Assembly (NCBI GenBank): GCA_025058515.1
Contig: JANXDW010000020.1
Location: forward strand, 1 to 38,996
Source of the DNA: Aigarchaeota archaeon
GTDB lineage: Archaea > Thermoproteota > Nitrososphaeria_A > Caldarchaeales > Wolframiiraptoraceae
Length of the DNA stretch: 38,996 nucleotides
Reading direction: 5' to 3'
Each line of letters begins with the position of its first letter. The stretch's first letter is position 1. Below the pieces are notes generated by a model. It was not told the DNA's origin. It searched no databases and saw only the letters and a list, made by a program, of their open reading frames with translations. The translations under genes and the position numbers were made by a program. Shown here in pieces: positions 2,950 through 8,709 of this stretch.

Positions 2950-3567
2950 TTAGAGGGGTGGGAACTTCTTTCTCAGTTTCTTAAATACATCTGTAAGAGT
3001 GTCGGTAGATTTTTGTTTGTATTCTTCTTGAACTTCAGGAGGCTGTATATAGAATAAGTCTACAGTATCCATTCCTTTAATAGTGCTTTCAATAACCTTT
3101 GTTCTATGTATCCCTATACTAACTCTTAGAGGGACTATTCTCCCTTGTCTATCTATGTGGAAGATTTTGAACTTTAGGTCTGCCAACTTTCTAGTTTCAG
3201 CGTATTTCAATGGGTCGATGACCATTGCGACAGCTTTGGGAAACATCATTTGATACCTCTTCTGCGTCTCTATATCTATCGTAGAGAGGAATAAGTCGAA
3301 ACCTGGATGTGAATGATACCATCCAACAATGTTTAATCCAGGTCTCTCTTGTGAAAGCCACTCAAAGGTTATAGCCATGACTTCTTCATCTAATGCTACG
3401 AATGCAGAAGATGATTTCTGGTTTCCAGATATTGCATCCCATATCTCTAAAATATCTTGCTTTTTTTCATATCTCCCAATTAAGAGACCTGCAACTTCTC
3501 TCTCAAGATCCATCAAAGAGTATTTCACAGCCTTTCCTAATGCTAGTGGATAGATCCTCACTCTCAA
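2950..3567 (-). CDS. Rpn11-like JAMM (MPN+) ubiquitin protease
   Basis: Zinc isopeptidase of the JAMM family. In this setting it probably trims the ubiquitin precursor after Gly-Gly and removes ubiquitin from conjugates, as shown for the Caldiarchaeum homologue. The full JAMM signature is present: Glu24 in the EVAGLLIG segment, His85-Ser-His87-Pro, Ser95 and Asp98 (HSHPGFDLFLSTID). The flanking GWYHSHPGF and DIETQKRYQ closely resemble proteasomal Rpn11. The 205-residue protein is an MPN domain with a helical C-terminal tail. It is transcribed divergently from the ubiquitin-E2-E1-RING genes across 181 bases. The start is TTG at 3567 or GTG at 3561; no ribosome site decides between them. Confidence 0.92.
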   Translation of the reverse strand: MRVRIYPLALGKAVKYSLMDLEREVAGLLIGRYEKKQDILEIWDAISGNQKSSSAFVALDEEVMAITFEWLSQERPGLNIVGWYHSHPGFDLFLSTIDIETQKRYQMMFPKAVAMVIDPLKYAETRKLADLKFKIFHIDRQGRIVPLRVSIGIHRTKVIESTIKGMDTVDLFYIQPPEVQEEYKQKSTDTLTDVFKKLRKKFPPL

Positions 3568-3748: not shown

Positions 3749-4009
3749 ATGAAGATTAAGGTTGTTCCCGCAGTGGGTGGTGGGAGCCCCATAGAATTGG
3801 AGGTGATGCCTTCGACTACTGTAGGTGCTATAAGAGCTAAAGTATGTGCTATGAAGAAGCTTCCCCCAGATACGACAAGATTGACTTTCAGAGGTAGAGC
3901 ACTAAAAGATACTGAGACTTTACAAGATATTGGAGCACAAGATGGAGATAAGCTCGTCTTGATTACTAGAACCGTGGGGGGAGTGGATAGTGTATGCAGA
4001 GCTCCCTGA
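3749..4009 (+). CDS. Ubiquitin-like modifier, precursor form
   Basis: The small protein tag of the conjugation system. The 86 residues align end to end with ubiquitin: PSTTVGAIRAKVCAMKKLPPD matches the ubiquitin helix region, and RLTFRGRALKDTETLQDIG matches RLIFAGKQLEDGRTLSDYN. The C-terminus runs LVLITRTVGG followed by eight extra residues (VDSVCRAP), so processing must expose Gly77-Gly78, presumably by the divergent JAMM protease. Arg74 occupies the position of ubiquitin Arg72, which E1 reads. The hydrophobic-patch Ile44 is Thr46 here, and a short glycine-rich insertion lies in the first loop. Lysines are present at 2, 4, 31, 36, 37, 53 and 68. It overlaps the E2 gene by 20 bases. Confidence 0.93.
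   Translation: MKIKVVPAVGGGSPIELEVMPSTTVGAIRAKVCAMKKLPPDTTRLTFRGRALKDTETLQDIGAQDGDKLVLITRTVGGVDSVCRAP
3976..3989 (+). promoter_or_regulatory. Ribosome-binding site of E2 inside the Gly-Gly codons of ubiquitin
   Basis: The codons for ubiquitin Gly77-Gly78 and the next residue read GGGGGAGTG. GGAG at 3980-3983 lies six bases before the E2 start GTG at 3990, good Shine-Dalgarno spacing. It decides the E2 start and implies translational coupling of tag and E2. Confidence 0.55.
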
Positions 4010-4469
4010 ATTACTCTGGTATAAGAGGTTAGCATTAGAATACAAGCTTGTACATGAACATGAACCTCTTTTCGATATAGTTGATGGAGACTTAACACAT
4101 TACAAAGGGATAATAATAGGTGGAGGACTCTACGAGGGAGGTTATTTTAAAGTAGAGATCTTCATACCTCGTACATTTCCTTATACTCCACCAGAGGTTG
4201 TTTGGTGGACACGGATCTGGCATCCAAACTTTACAGATGAGATTCCTCCGAGAATATGTGAATCGGTATTTAAAGATGATTGGTCTCCATCCCTCCACAT
4301 AATCACATTAATAGAGACCCTTAGAAATCTCCTCAACAATCCCAACCCAGATGATCCTCTCAATACTATAGCTGCTATGGAGATGAAATTTAGACCTGAT
4401 ATATTCGAGGCTAGAGTTAGACAATATATTGAGTTATTTGCTAGACCTGAGCAAGCTTTAACCCGGTAA
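3990..4469 (+). CDS. E2 ubiquitin-conjugating enzyme (UBC fold)
   Basis: Carries ubiquitin as a thioester and passes it to target lysines with a RING partner. The 159-residue protein is a bare UBC core. IFIPRTFPYTPPEV (about 57-70) matches the eukaryotic FPxxYPFxPP strand, His78-Pro79-Asn80 is the HPN motif whose Asn stabilises the transition state, and Cys90 in RICESVFKDDWSPS is the catalytic cysteine. NPNPDDPLNTIAA (117-129) matches the PNPDDPL loop of eukaryotic E2s. All catalytic residues are intact. The start is GTG at 3990, backed by GGAG within the ubiquitin gene. E1 follows after 66 bases. Confidence 0.94.
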   Translation: MYAELPELLWYKRLALEYKLVHEHEPLFDIVDGDLTHYKGIIIGGGLYEGGYFKVEIFIPRTFPYTPPEVVWWTRIWHPNFTDEIPPRICESVFKDDWSPSLHIITLIETLRNLLNNPNPDDPLNTIAAMEMKFRPDIFEARVRQYIELFARPEQALTR

Positions 4470-4535: not shown

Positions 4536-5708
4536 ATGCGGTACTTGGAGAGATATGAAAGACAGCTTAGAATAGAGGGATGGGATCAGGATAAGTTATC
4601 TAACTCAACTGTAATGATCGTTGGAGTTGGAGCGATAGGATGTGAAATTGCTAAAAACTTAACATTAATGGGTGTAGGGGAACTCATACTAGTAGATAAT
4701 GATGTTGTCGAGGTCTCCAATCTAAGTAGGCAGATGCTCTTTACAGATAAAGATATTGGTAGACCTAAGACAATGGTTGCTAGAGAAAGATTGGTAGAGA
4801 TGAACCAATTCATTAAGATTAGAGATTATTATAAAGATGTTAGAGAATTAGACAATAGCATCTTTGAGGAGGTTGATATTATCTGCTCATGTCTAGATAA
4901 CTGGCCTGTTAGAAGATGGGTTAACTCTATGGCAGTTGAACTAGATATCCCATTGATCGATGCAGCTATGGATGGATTATACGCTAATCTACAAGTAGTC
5001 TTACCTGGGAAGACAGCATGCTTAGAATGTCATGGGGAAACCTTGATCCCTAGAGAGGTACAATTAGCAGAATGTACATTGAGGAAGAGAAAACCAGAAG
5101 ATCTAAAGAGAGAATTAGAAGAACAGAATATTGTAGTAGATTTAGAGTTGGTTAAAAAGCTCTTTGAAGTAGGTATAAAGACCGTCTTCGATATAAAGTA
5201 TTCACAAGCTCAGATATTGGAGAGAGTAGATGAAGAAGTTAAAGATAAGATTAGGGAGATTCAAGAATTGTTGAAACCTAAGATGCCGGCTCTACAGAGC
5301 GTTGCAGCTGCGATCTCTGGTTTAGCGACCACTGAGCTCGTGAAGATATTACATGGAGAATCTCTTGGAAAGATCTTTAGCGGGCTGATAGTGTACGATG
5401 GATATTCGACTAGGTTTACGAGAGTAAAGCTGGATAAGAATAAAGTTTGCTTCGTCTGTGGAGACTATGTTAAGACTGAGGGGGCAGAGATAAAGGTTAA
5501 ACTTGATGAGAAGGTAATCGACTTAAAGAAGAAGGTTGCAGAAAGATTCAGTTTCCCAGATCCAGAGATCTTGTATAAGAAGTGGAGATTGGAAGATGAC
5601 CAAGTACTTAGAGAGATAGGGATAAGAAACAACGATATTGTATATGTAGAGACTAGTAGGAGGTTTAACCCTCTACCTCTTAAAATACTATTAGTAGATA
5701 CAGAATAG
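4536..5708 (+). CDS. E1 ubiquitin-activating enzyme with C-terminal ubiquitin-fold domain
   Basis: Adenylates the C-terminal glycine of ubiquitin and forms an E1 thioester before transfer to E2. A ThiF/MoeB-like adenylation domain comes first, with the nucleotide loop GVGAIG (30-35), then Asp54/Asp56, Asn62, Arg65, Lys78 and Asp121. Zinc pairs are Cys162/Cys165 and Cys305/Cys308. Cys180 in LAECTLRKR matches the catalytic cysteine of Uba2/SAE2 (CTIR), within a short helical cysteine domain (about 170-250). Residues about 316-374 look like a ubiquitin-fold domain (LKKKVAERF, LREIGIRNNDIVYVE), which recruits E2 in eukaryotic E1s. At 390 residues it is a compact single-chain E1. Start is ATG at 4536. 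Confidence 0.93.
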   Translation: MRYLERYERQLRIEGWDQDKLSNSTVMIVGVGAIGCEIAKNLTLMGVGELILVDNDVVEVSNLSRQMLFTDKDIGRPKTMVARERLVEMNQFIKIRDYYKDVRELDNSIFEEVDIICSCLDNWPVRRWVNSMAVELDIPLIDAAMDGLYANLQVVLPGKTACLECHGETLIPREVQLAECTLRKRKPEDLKRELEEQNIVVDLELVKKLFEVGIKTVFDIKYSQAQILERVDEEVKDKIREIQELLKPKMPALQSVAAAISGLATTELVKILHGESLGKIFSGLIVYDGYSTRFTRVKLDKNKVCFVCGDYVKTEGAEIKVKLDEKVIDLKKKVAERFSFPDPEILYKKWRLEDDQVLREIGIRNNDIVYVETSRRFNPLPLKILLVDTE

Positions 5709-5775: not shown

Positions 5776-6036
5776 ATGGTTAGGAGGATAAGGGTAACCC
5801 GCCCTGTTAATAGTGGTTTCTGGGATCCTTGGAGTGTTGAAGAAGTTAAGAAAACAACACCTATGCCTAAACTTGAAGCTAAGCGTGTATGTGTTATCTG
5901 CTTATCGGAGATTAGCGAGGGAGCGGCCATGATCGAGTGCCCATATTGTGGTGCATTAGGTCATGAAAACTGTTTTGAAGAATGGATTACCATGAAGGGT
6001 AAATGCCCACTCTGCCGAAGAACAATAACACTTTAA
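5776..6036 (+). CDS. Small RING-finger protein (E3-like, srfp type)
   Basis: Probable E3 that bridges E2 and target. The 86 residues are a basic N-terminal tail (about 1-35) and a zinc-binding RING with eight ligands: Cys39, Cys42, Cys55, Cys58, His63, Cys66, Cys77 and Cys80, an order of C4HC3. The segment CGALGHENCFEEW is nearly repeated in the membrane RING protein at 7505-8236. The published Caldiarchaeum cluster carries an equivalent small RING protein in the same place, and its E3 activity has been reconstituted in vitro. Here the activity is inferred from that homology. Last gene of the ubiquitin-E2-E1-RING group, 67 bases after E1. Confidence 0.88.
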   Translation: MVRRIRVTRPVNSGFWDPWSVEEVKKTTPMPKLEAKRVCVICLSEISEGAAMIECPYCGALGHENCFEEWITMKGKCPLCRRTITL

Positions 6037-6143: not shown

Positions 6144-6566
6144 TTGAATGAGATTATTAGGGTGGAGAAATTGGCCGATTCTTTAAAGAAAGAAGAGAGA
6201 AAAGAAGAGAAAAAGTTTGAGGTGGAGATCGTACCTGAATACTTAGAGACTCCGAGCGGTAAGAAGGTTGCGACATTTGATTTCACGATGGGAGTTGTAA
6301 GAGCTTTAGAAGCTATAGATGAAGCTGAATCAGAGTTGGAAGAAAGAATTGAAAGATTGGAGAAGGGGGAGAATCTCGTTAAGCTTCTTGAAAGATTTAG
6401 TGGACTTGAAGCTCGGATTGCTACGATCGAGAAGTCTTTGAGCAGTTTAGAGAAGAATATACAGAGTGATATTGAAGATATATCAGATAAACTCTCAGCA
6501 TTGATAGATGCTTTCCACGAGTTAGCTGAAAGAGTACAGAGAATGGAAGAAGCTCTTAAGGGTTAA
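6144..6566 (+). CDS. Predicted coiled-coil protein of unknown function
   Basis: I do not recognise the family. The 140-residue protein has a charged N-terminus rich in Lys and Glu (about 1-25), a short possible beta segment (VEIVPEYLETPSGKKVATFDF) and a long heptad-patterned helix from about residue 45 to the end (EAESELEERIERLEKGENLV, then LSSLEKNIQSDIEDISDKLS). There are no cysteines, signal peptide or membrane segment, so it is probably cytosolic. Start is TTG at 6144, supported by the TATA-like sequence 22 bases upstream. It follows the small RING gene after 107 bases on the same strand and overlaps the convergent coiled-coil gene by 11 bases. The position suggests a link to the ubiquitin genes, but nothing in the sequence proves one. 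Confidence 0.7.
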   Translation: MNEIIRVEKLADSLKKEERKEEKKFEVEIVPEYLETPSGKKVATFDFTMGVVRALEAIDEAESELEERIERLEKGENLVKLLERFSGLEARIATIEKSLSSLEKNIQSDIEDISDKLSALIDAFHELAERVQRMEEALKG

Positions 6567-7398
6567 GATAAGCTCTTCTCAATTCTGTTATAAGCCCTTC
6601 TAATCTAGATCTCTTATCTTCTAATTCTCTTATCTCACTTTCAAGTTTTCTCTTCTTCTCTGTTAAAGCATTAATCTCTCCCCTCAATTGAGCGATCTTC
6701 TTCTCTGCTTCAGCAACCGCCTCTTCCCTCTCTCTAAGTTTAGCTAAAGATTCTTTTAGCTCAGCCTCTCTTCTAACAAGCCTCTCAAGCCTAATCTCTC
6801 TAAGCTTAAACTCTCTCATGATTTCTTTAACGACTTCTTCAATCCTAGTCTTCGCTTCTTCTATACCCATCAAGTAGCGTTGAGATAATTCAGAAACCTT
6901 CTGCTCAAGTTCTCTCTTCTTCTCCTCAAGTATACTTATTTCTTCTTCTCTTAAATTCAATTGCCTCTCCTTCATCTCGAGGTCTTCTCTCCATTTCTTC
7001 ATCTCTTCTTTCATTGTCTCTACTTCAGCTTTCTCTTTAAGTAGACGTTGCACCTCTTGCTTGATGATCTCTCTTTCTTTAGTTAGTGCTTCAACTATGT
7101 CCTTTATTCCTTCTTGAACAGATAAGAGCATGTTCTCATAATATCTCACTATTGTAAGTTCTTCAGATACTTTTTCAAGTTTCTCTACGAATGGTTTAAT
7201 TTTATCTTCAAAAGCTGATGGGTAAGATGATAGATGTGATAAGAGTGTAGTCAATTTATCTATATCTTTTTCAATATTCTCTAAAGACCTCTCTAAGTTA
7301 GAGACAATATCAGATTTAGCATGTGATAATTCCATTGTAATTTTCTGCTCAAGTTCTTCAACCCACTTCTCTTTTTTAGATGAAGAAAATATACTCAT
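6556..7398 (-). CDS. Long coiled-coil protein of unknown function
   Basis: 280 residues, almost entirely charged heptad-type helix rich in Glu, Lys, Leu and Arg, in the style of structural or tethering coiled coils. The N-terminus MSIFSSSKKEKWVEELEQK is short and polar, with no signal peptide, membrane helix or nucleotide-binding motif. The helix breaks near residues 50-75 (HLSSYPSAFEDKIKPF) and continues to near the end. Similarity to SMC or myosin-like proteins would reflect composition only. The ATG at 7398 is 106 bases from the divergent membrane RING gene, and its 3' end overlaps the other coiled-coil gene. It sits between the two RING genes, so a scaffold or substrate role is a guess from context. 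Confidence 0.72.
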   Translation of the reverse strand: MSIFSSSKKEKWVEELEQKITMELSHAKSDIVSNLERSLENIEKDIDKLTTLLSHLSSYPSAFEDKIKPFVEKLEKVSEELTIVRYYENMLLSVQEGIKDIVEALTKEREIIKQEVQRLLKEKAEVETMKEEMKKWREDLEMKERQLNLREEEISILEEKKRELEQKVSELSQRYLMGIEEAKTRIEEVVKEIMREFKLREIRLERLVRREAELKESLAKLREREEAVAEAEKKIAQLRGEINALTEKKRKLESEIRELEDKRSRLEGLITELRRAYLNP

Positions 7399-7460: not shown

Positions 7461-7497
7461 TTTATAAAAGAGGGGGTGGGGTAGTCTACAGAGGGAG
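7461..7497 (+). promoter_or_regulatory. TATA-like element and ribosome-binding site of the membrane RING gene
   Basis: TTTATAAAAG (7461-7470) is the TATA-like element. GAGGGAG at 7491-7497 is a good Shine-Dalgarno seven bases before the TTG at 7505 and fixes that start. An unusual G-rich run (AGGGGGTGGGG) lies between them. Confidence 0.5.
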
Positions 7498-7504
7498 TAA
7501 ATAC

Positions 7505-8236
7505 TTGATTGTAACTCAAGAAGAAGTAGTCTCCCGATTTTTTAAGATCGGTTCAAGTGGAGCTGTTGTAGGAGCATTACATATTCTCACATTATTACTT
7601 GGATGGTATATTGAGACAGATGGAGAAGGTGTCATCGCACTTACCGGATACAACTTTATGGAGTCTTTTATACTATCTACAGTTGGTGGGCTAGTAGCTG
7701 GAATAAGTCTATTGATCGCATACTTAGTTAAGAAGTTGAATATTATGAAAGCTGTAATCGGAGGATTATTAGTATCGGGAGGAGCACTTGCTCTCCTCTC
7801 CCCAATATACATATATCTATTCAAGATCTTAGCATTTAATCTTCGAGGCTACCCTGATCTCGGCTTCTTTGCAGCTGTATTCACTGCTATAATCCAGCTT
7901 GGAATTGGTGTATTAGTTCTCTTAACACCTTTAAAGAAAGAAATACTCATCGCAGAGGAGGCGGCGGCTGTAGAAAGATATCCCACACCTTCAATTATAG
8001 AAGAAGTTGAGTTGGGGGCTCCGATGCGTAGAGAGATTCGTAGATCTAGCGTGGCCAGCATAGTTGATGCAGAAGATGTTGAAGAAGGTATATGCATGAT
8101 ATGTTATTATCCATTAACTAGTGAGACTTCAGTTAAGTGTAGTGCATGTGGAGCTCTCTTCCATAGAGATTGTATAGATGCGTGGGTTAGCTTAAACCGC
8201 GTCTGCCCAAACTGTAAAACATTGATAAGTCATTAA
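7505..8236 (+). CDS. Membrane-anchored RING-finger protein, candidate E3 ligase
   Basis: 243 residues in two parts. Residues about 17-37, 55-76, 81-108 and 117-141 are four predicted membrane helices. After a polar linker (about 145-195) comes a zinc RING with Cys197, Cys200, Cys212, Cys215, His220, Cys223, Cys234 and Cys237. Its C4HC3 order, spacing and CGALFHRDCIDAW segment closely match the small RING protein at 5776-6036 (CGALGHENCFEEW). With an even number of helices and a short N-terminus, both ends would face the cytosol, where E2 is. Eukaryotic MARCH-type ligases pair a C4HC3 RING with membrane helices, but with the RING at the N-terminus. The start is TTG, fixed by GAGGGAG seven bases upstream. 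The E3 role is inferred from the domain and from proximity to E1, E2 and ubiquitin. Confidence 0.82.
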   Translation: MIVTQEEVVSRFFKIGSSGAVVGALHILTLLLGWYIETDGEGVIALTGYNFMESFILSTVGGLVAGISLLIAYLVKKLNIMKAVIGGLLVSGGALALLSPIYIYLFKILAFNLRGYPDLGFFAAVFTAIIQLGIGVLVLLTPLKKEILIAEEAAAVERYPTPSIIEEVELGAPMRREIRRSSVASIVDAEDVEEGICMICYYPLTSETSVKCSACGALFHRDCIDAWVSLNRVCPNCKTLISH

Positions 8237-8709
8237 GTGAATAACTGTCTGATGAAAGACCCTAGATAATATGCTGACACAATAACTATGATCGTTAATA
8301 CTAAATGTTCTAAAATGATCTTGCTACTCTTTTTATTCTGCTTCTTGGCCATATAGTAACTAAAGAAAGATATTAGTGCTAGTCCCCATCCAACACTTGC
8401 ATAAATCGTGTTAGGTGGATCGAGAAGTAGTACAGGTAATAGGAAACTAAGTGTAAAGACTGCTTTAGAGATTAGTGTAGATACTGTACTCTCAAGTATC
8501 TCTTCACTTGTATGCTCACCTTCAGCTTCTTCTGAAACATGGATCCCCATAGCATCAGATAGAGAGTCTGCGAGAGCTAGGACAAGGATTCCTGTCATAA
8601 CAGCTAGCTTAGATTGGGTACCAGATTCCAAGCCGATTATTATACCAAGAGTAGTTATAACTCCTGAGGTTAGCCCAAATCCTACACCTTTCGAGAACGT
8701 AATCTTCAT
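8233..8709 (-). CDS. VIT1/CCC1-like membrane protein (putative iron/manganese transporter)
   Basis: 158-residue membrane protein resembling the VIT1 (vacuolar iron transporter) family of divalent-metal/H+ antiporters. The first half shows GFGLTSGVITTLGIIIGLESG and LADSLSDAMGIHVSEEAE, like the DGLVTT and ADA(I/M)SMGxGEYLSxxSE region of VIT1. About four to five hydrophobic helices are visible (9-30, 33-52, 80-98, 104-122, 134-154). It is shorter than classical VIT1 (about 230 residues), like archaeal members of the family. Its 3' end overlaps that of the convergent membrane RING gene by four bases. Substrate is uncertain. Confidence 0.65.
   Translation of the reverse strand: MKITFSKGVGFGLTSGVITTLGIIIGLESGTQSKLAVMTGILVLALADSLSDAMGIHVSEEAEGEHTSEEILESTVSTLISKAVFTLSFLLPVLLLDPPNTIYASVGWGLALISFFSYYMAKKQNKKSSKIILEHLVLTIIVIVSAYYLGSFIRQLFT

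Follow-up and report, generated by a model that had tools for sequence, protein, structure and literature searches.

Ubiquitylation in archaea has so far been reconstituted with one soluble RING only. The studies of the cascade that we consulted use only this small RING protein, srfp, and in C. subterraneum normal conjugation depends on its residues I30 and W58 and on its linchpin R69 (PMC5654768). According to Fuchs et al. (2018), who cite Nunoura (2011), 'a second E3 protein' lies next to the C. subterraneum operon; their text is silent on its sequence, membrane topology, conservation and fold (PMC6043591). Because it is the only other RING that we saw next to that operon, this second E3 is probably the C. 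subterraneum orthologue (locus L032, 8380-9132) of the protein described here. The first-pass annotation of the present locus took the published cascade to have one soluble RING and overlooked this protein, which is not called a membrane protein in that paper.

In this work we describe a membrane-RING protein, hereafter mRING, encoded in a window (the whole stretch of 38,996 nt that was analysed) from the Caldarchaeales/Aigarchaeota. mRING shares with the srfp of C. subterraneum (PMC5654768) the zinc-ligand spacing, the E2-contact I/W/P, the linchpin positions, the gene neighbourhood and the class. It differs from srfp, which is soluble, about 75-90 amino acids long and marked by an invariant N-terminal G-x-W motif, by its four-helix membrane domain, its linker, its own predicted promoter and a less conserved linchpin; with four TM helices and without the G-x-W motif, mRING falls outside the srfp family. 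Our search of the open literature yielded no description of the protein as a membrane protein, nor of its conservation across the class, its fold or the pattern of its E2-contact residues. We rate mRING as a putative RING E3 with a lineage-specific membrane domain, the gene of which had been noticed before and the properties of which are new to that literature.

Results

The features of the locus are listed in Table 1.

Table 1. Genes and domains around mRING (positions in the window; aa, residues of mRING)
Feature	Position	Strand	Remarks
Rpn11/JAMM deubiquitinase	2950..3567	-	JAB, 3.4e-18
Pro-ubiquitin	3749..4009	+	GG followed by a VDSVCRAP tail
E2	3990..4469	+	Catalytic Cys90 invariant among relatives
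E1	4536..5708	+	C-terminal ubiquitin-like domain
srfp, soluble small RING protein	5776..6036	+	Experimentally studied E3 type (PMC5654768); profile match
Coiled-coil protein CC1	6144..6566	+	Often conserved between srfp and mRING
Coiled-coil protein CC2	6556..7398	-	Divergent from mRING; conserved across the class
Archaeal TATA-box-like TTTATAAAAG	7461..7470	+	Upstream of mRING; repeated in same-genus relatives and near genera
mRING (membrane-RING protein)	7505..8236	+	TTG start, 243 aa
mRING membrane domain, aa 5-140	7517..7924	+	Four TM helices; extracytosolic strands 33-39, 42-47, 114-117; predicted claudin/TARP-like fold
mRING linker, aa 141-195	7925..8089	+	About 30 residues predicted disordered; pLDDT <50 at 147-149, 151-153, 158-180
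mRING RING domain, C197 to C237, C4HC3	8093..8215	+	I199, W227, P235, K238 at E2-contact and linchpin positions

In the alignment of orthologues, their start position coincides with the TTG start of mRING. The frame is kept in 41 genomes, which rules out a spurious ORF at 7505-8236, and because the whole architecture is kept in these genomes a chance origin of helices plus RING is excluded. The four membrane helices noted at first reading are borne out both by a hydropathy scan, in which TM helices start at residues 15, 56, 80 and 122, and by AlphaFold, which predicts helices at 5-31, 52-75, 78-109 and 119-140 with high confidence. At a looser cut-off, four hydrophobic segments are found in 41/41 orthologues, three of which have one extra. 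Over the 41 orthologues the density of K/R on the inner side is 0.20 at the N-terminus, 0.32 in the middle loop and 0.13 after TM4, compared with 0.03 and 0.11 in the outer loops. This charge bias supports an N-in/C-in topology with the RING on the cytosolic side, in agreement with the orientation initially proposed. Between TM4 and the C-terminal RING lies a flexible linker of about 45 residues.

The RING of mRING matches the Pfam profile zf-RING_2 above its curated cut-off (E=4.5e-10), as do all 24 orthologues scanned, and the small RING upstream matches it with E=1.8e-11; the closest solved structures by sequence are the RINGs of Arkadia and RNF38. The profile is of the RING-H2 type, although the ligand order of mRING, C-x2-C-x11-C-x2-C-x4-H-x2-C-x10-C-x2-C, is C4HC3. 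The eight zinc ligands, in cross-brace order, are invariant (41/41 orthologues), and with the profile match they confirm the C4HC3 RING of the first-pass annotation. The spacing that it had likened to that of the small RING 1.5 kb upstream is identical in the two proteins save for one residue in the first loop (x11/12), over a distance of 1.47 kb. A likeness to MARCH ligases, which it had named as a eukaryotic parallel, is found neither in the profile nor in the ligand spacing: a MARCH/RING-CH kinship was rejected, as RINGv gives E=0.56, below cut-off, and ligands 3-4 are C-x2-C, not C-x-C.

The residues I, W, P and K of the window's mRING stand at places matching the E2-contact and linchpin positions of srfp. 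The hydrophobic E2-contact residues, on which the first-pass annotation had staked its proposal, are present across the family: the I199 position is I in 40 orthologues and L in one, the W227 position is W in 38 and Y in three, and the E2-contact proline after C7 is invariant (41/41), so that I, W and P are conserved in mRING at least as well as in srfp. The basic linchpin after the last ligand is more variable, with K/R in 22/41 orthologues (two in f2 and each of the 20 in f1, the family of the window) and G/N/Q in the remaining 19 (all Calditenuaceae, f4 and part of f2). A linchpin is found in many RING E3s, not in all; as roughly every second orthologue lacks it, equal E3 strength of all mRINGs cannot be assumed.

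AlphaFold models of mRING were built with 15 orthologues. The full-length model has a pLDDT of 84, with a disordered linker, and the membrane domain alone a pLDDT of 91 and a pTM of 0.83, with the predicted elements H5-31, E33-39, E42-47, H52-75, H78-109, E114-117 and H119-140. When either model was compared with the PDB by Foldseek, all top 50 matches were claudins, TARPs and Cav gamma1, either as single proteins or within receptor complexes, with a best E-value of 1.6e-3, a probability of 0.99-1.00 and TM-scores that reach 0.67 (query) and 0.58 (target). The membrane domain as modelled resembles the claudin/TARP fold, a resemblance of the predicted model for which common descent is not claimed. 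Shared with claudins, TARPs and Cav-gamma proteins are the four helices, the extracytosolic strands predicted between TM1 and TM2 and between TM3 and TM4, and an invariant W at the end of TM1. In contrast with claudins, mRING shows no detectable sequence similarity to them, no W-GLW-C-C signature and no outer-loop (disulphide) cysteines, and its outer loops are shorter. No Pfam family was found for residues 1-182. Claudin, TARP and Cav-gamma proteins exert their function by touching other proteins of the membrane laterally, and a claudin-like fold outside eukaryotes would, if confirmed, be of interest in itself.

The class of the window is represented by 44 genomes in our collection (searches by order and by class give the same set), the named relatives being Candidatus Geocrenenecus, Terraquivivens, Wolframiiraptor, Caldarchaeum, Pelearchaeum and Calditenuis. 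Full-length mRING is present in 41 of the 44 genomes and in all 14 genera; of the three misses, two (G036, G040) have a contig end beside or inside the neighbour gene CC2 and the third (G001) is an 81%-complete assembly of about 350 contigs. The E2 of the clade is full-length in 43/44 genomes and partial in G012 (57% complete), and the same holds for ubiquitin. The lack of co-occurrence across relatives that the first-pass annotation had named as fatal to its proposal is not what is seen. As E2, ubiquitin and mRING are present throughout the class, this co-occurrence is one clade-level fact and does not count as many independent ones. Full-length mRING was found in none of 354 other Thermoproteota genomes, which gave weak RING-region matches only, and in none of 20 Asgard genomes; a distant E2-like gene is present in seven Thermoproteota from outside the class, none of which has mRING. 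Used as sole query, the membrane domain retrieves one copy per Caldarchaeal genome, always fused to the mRING RING, and no other protein in 250 genomes of the phylum. A viral or mobile origin of mRING was also considered, and no match was found in phage records or viral contigs.

The complete archaeal ubiquitin cluster reported beside mRING is indeed there, with Rpn11/JAB, ubiquitin, E2, E1 and the small RING, and the frequent gene order is Rpn11(-) Ub E2 E1 srfp CC1 CC2(-) mRING glyS phoU-like. mRING and srfp are neighbours in 29/41 genomes, and contig breaks account for seven more. The most stable neighbour of mRING is glyS, not the ubiquitin genes; it lies directly 3' of mRING in all loci read except in the window, where a gene for a VIT-like small membrane protein (8233-8709, - strand) shares a few bases with the end of mRING and separates it from glyS. 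The TATA box TTTATAAAAG, or a close variant, stands some 40 bp before the mRING start in the window's genus and near genera. Because CC2 intervenes on the opposite strand and because of this TATA box, mRING is, by gene layout and its own predicted promoter, not a component of the Ub-E2-E1-srfp operon. The tie to the cluster that was first proposed stands as adjacency in the window; operon membership does not, and glyS is the steadier neighbour. In the genus g11, mRING is accompanied by glyS only and srfp and CC2 are located apart. In Calditenuaceae (f3), srfp, CC2, mRING and glyS remain together, and Ub-E2-E1, usually with Rpn11, lies elsewhere in the genome without a RING; the idea, prompted by the split locus, that E1 and E2 were entirely absent from this family proved wrong. 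The gene orders of Calditenuaceae and g11 indicate that the proximity of mRING to E1/E2 is old and frequent, not obligatory.

Other features of the neighbourhood vary. In some close relatives (Ca. Geocrenenecus: G028, contigs C16 and C20, G026 and G029), Rpn11-Ub-E2, with other genes behind E2, is on another contig than srfp-CC1-CC2-mRING; in G028 and G029, E1 sits with the latter part. The two coiled-coil genes are kept between the RING genes across the class, and CC2 remains with srfp even where mRING has moved off.

Discussion

We consider it on balance likely that mRING is a membrane-anchored RING-type E3 that works with the E2 of the clade, a reading in which the ligase activity is deduced from sequence. 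It starts from what is observed of the protein, that is its architecture, its topology signals, its zinc ligands and E2-contact residues, and its class-wide conservation beside a complete ubiquitin system. The claudin-like four-helix domain would hold the protein in the cell membrane and would probably contact client membrane proteins laterally, with a presumed role in substrate choice, while the linker would give the cytosolic RING reach. The RING would dock E2~ubiquitin, charged by the E1 and E2 of the clade, and would promote ubiquitin transfer to cytosolic-face lysines of putative membrane protein substrates, from which Rpn11 could remove the tag. Several observations count against mRING as an E3: the linchpin is absent from 19/41 orthologues, the gene order is not tied to E1/E2 everywhere, the co-occurrence is a single clade-level one, and mRING is lacking from the seven Thermoproteota outside the class in which a distant E2-like gene was seen. 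More tentatively, mRING could be a ubiquitin ligase based on a prokaryotic tetraspan of claudin fold and form a dedicated membrane branch of ubiquitin signalling in Caldarchaeales, with its own membrane domain, independent of Asgard and eukaryotic membrane RINGs and, in Calditenuaceae, perhaps the main or only E2-binding RING; we find this larger proposal conceivable and, taken as a whole, somewhat doubtful.

The two RING proteins were also compared across lineages. In the Calditenuaceae loci compared for srfp (L036-L041, L053, L054, L060, L104), the I position is occupied by A (by V in G020) and the W position by L, zinc ligands and linchpin being kept, whereas the mRING of this family keeps I and W and has G at the linchpin. 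Since I is changed to A/V and W to L, it seems that srfp cannot engage the usual E2 face in this family, and it may no longer act as a normal E3; mRING, which has both of the residues that srfp lost, appears to be the better E2 partner. E2 loop 7 changes as well, from DWSPS to DWYPN or DWHPN, so that the interface has been remodelled in Calditenuaceae, perhaps along with a swap of partner. In the genus Caldarchaeum, srfp has I/W/R and mRING I/Y/G. These complementary changes of the E2 face, in srfp in the one lineage and in mRING (W to Y, K to G) in the other, would fit a reading in which mRING bound E2 but needed srfp, as the membrane half of a RING-RING pair of the BRCA1/BARD1 type in which one partner holds E2 and the other supports the closed E2~ubiquitin, and the frequent adjacency of the two genes, even more so when contig breaks are allowed for, fits such a pair. 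However, with two lineage-level events only the complementarity may be due to chance, the two genes are far apart in g11, and srfp is active alone in vitro (PMC5654768), so that we regard a pair of this kind as unlikely.

Gene layout raises a different possibility, namely that the RING-like domain serves as a zinc-binding interaction module and takes no part in ubiquitin transfer, mRING being a membrane sensor or scaffold and its proximity to the cluster a remnant of an old gene order. The steadiness of glyS rather than E1/E2 as a neighbour and the separate predicted promoter would agree with this, as would the C-x2-C-x4-H-x2-C spacing, which is also PHD-like (PHD/C1 matches are weak), and the linchpin missing from 19/41 mRINGs. 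Yet a structural zinc knuckle does not need the E2-contact I, W and P, which are kept at least as well as in srfp, and full-length mRING was found only in the clade that has E1, E2 and Rpn11; we judge a module of this type likewise unlikely. It is highly improbable that mRING, instead of being a ligase, is an adaptor platform that gathers E2 or ubiquitinated cargo at the membrane for use by srfp, as the intact E2-docking residues, variable linchpin and long disordered linker might suggest, since the window's mRING and all 20 f1 orthologues keep a K/R linchpin that an adaptor does not need.

As a candidate ligase, mRING can be compared with other membrane RINGs, a type of ligase that the first-pass annotation regarded as otherwise known from eukaryotes. 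Actually, Asgard archaea have RING proteins in which one, two or more TM helices are predicted, encoded outside E1/E2 clusters: in a crude two-strand scan, 12 of the 29 Asgard RING ORFs sampled have two or more strongly hydrophobic segments, and only soluble RINGs were seen adjoining Asgard E2 genes. Like mRING, these proteins have one or more membrane helices followed by a C-terminal RING of related spacing; unlike it, they have other membrane parts (signal peptide, ectodomain and one TM; two TM; others), vary at the sixth ligand (H for C) and are unlinked to an E1/E2 cluster. The eukaryotic RING-H2 ligases (RNF13/RNF24/ZNRF, ATL) and the ERAD ligases Hrd1/gp78 also join a membrane domain to a cytosolic zf-RING_2-type RING, and several of these proteins turn up when the PDB is searched with the RING sequence of mRING. 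Sequence similarity to them is nevertheless confined to the RING, and the membrane domains of eukaryotic RING-H2 and ERAD ligases are of other kinds than that of mRING. The uniqueness claimed at first thus fails in part, given the second E3 mentioned in 2018 and the Asgard proteins. These comparisons suggest that in archaea RINGs were joined to membrane domains at least twice, and that the membrane parts involved are unrelated.

One of the Asgard families, from Heimdallarchaea (L259-L265, e.g. L264:1483-2802 and L262:1486-2697, both on the - strand), consists of an apparent signal peptide, an ectodomain of ~280 residues, one TM and a C-terminal RING. Its genes adjoin an Orc1/Cdc6-like ATPase gene, and its layout resembles that of eukaryotic RNF13/ZNRF3-type ligases.

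The presence of a membrane RING in nearly every genome of a class is a lead towards membrane proteins as ubiquitin substrates, and suggests, at the level of sequence, that Caldarchaeal archaea may tag membrane proteins with ubiquitin. Because it is small and soluble, the RING of mRING could be tested directly in the existing E1/E2/ubiquitin assay.

Two minor observations concern the ubiquitin genes of the class. Past GG, the ubiquitin precursor carries a tail of up to about 18 residues, and no tail at all in several genera, where a stop comes right behind GG; processing by Rpn11 may therefore be unneeded in some species. In addition, locus L105 (G010:C2, about 193 kb) and g11 relatives have a frame of ~270-290 aa with weak matches to both ubiquitin and E2 profiles; in g11 this frame adjoins a second Rpn11-like gene, and it might represent a Ub-E2 fusion system.
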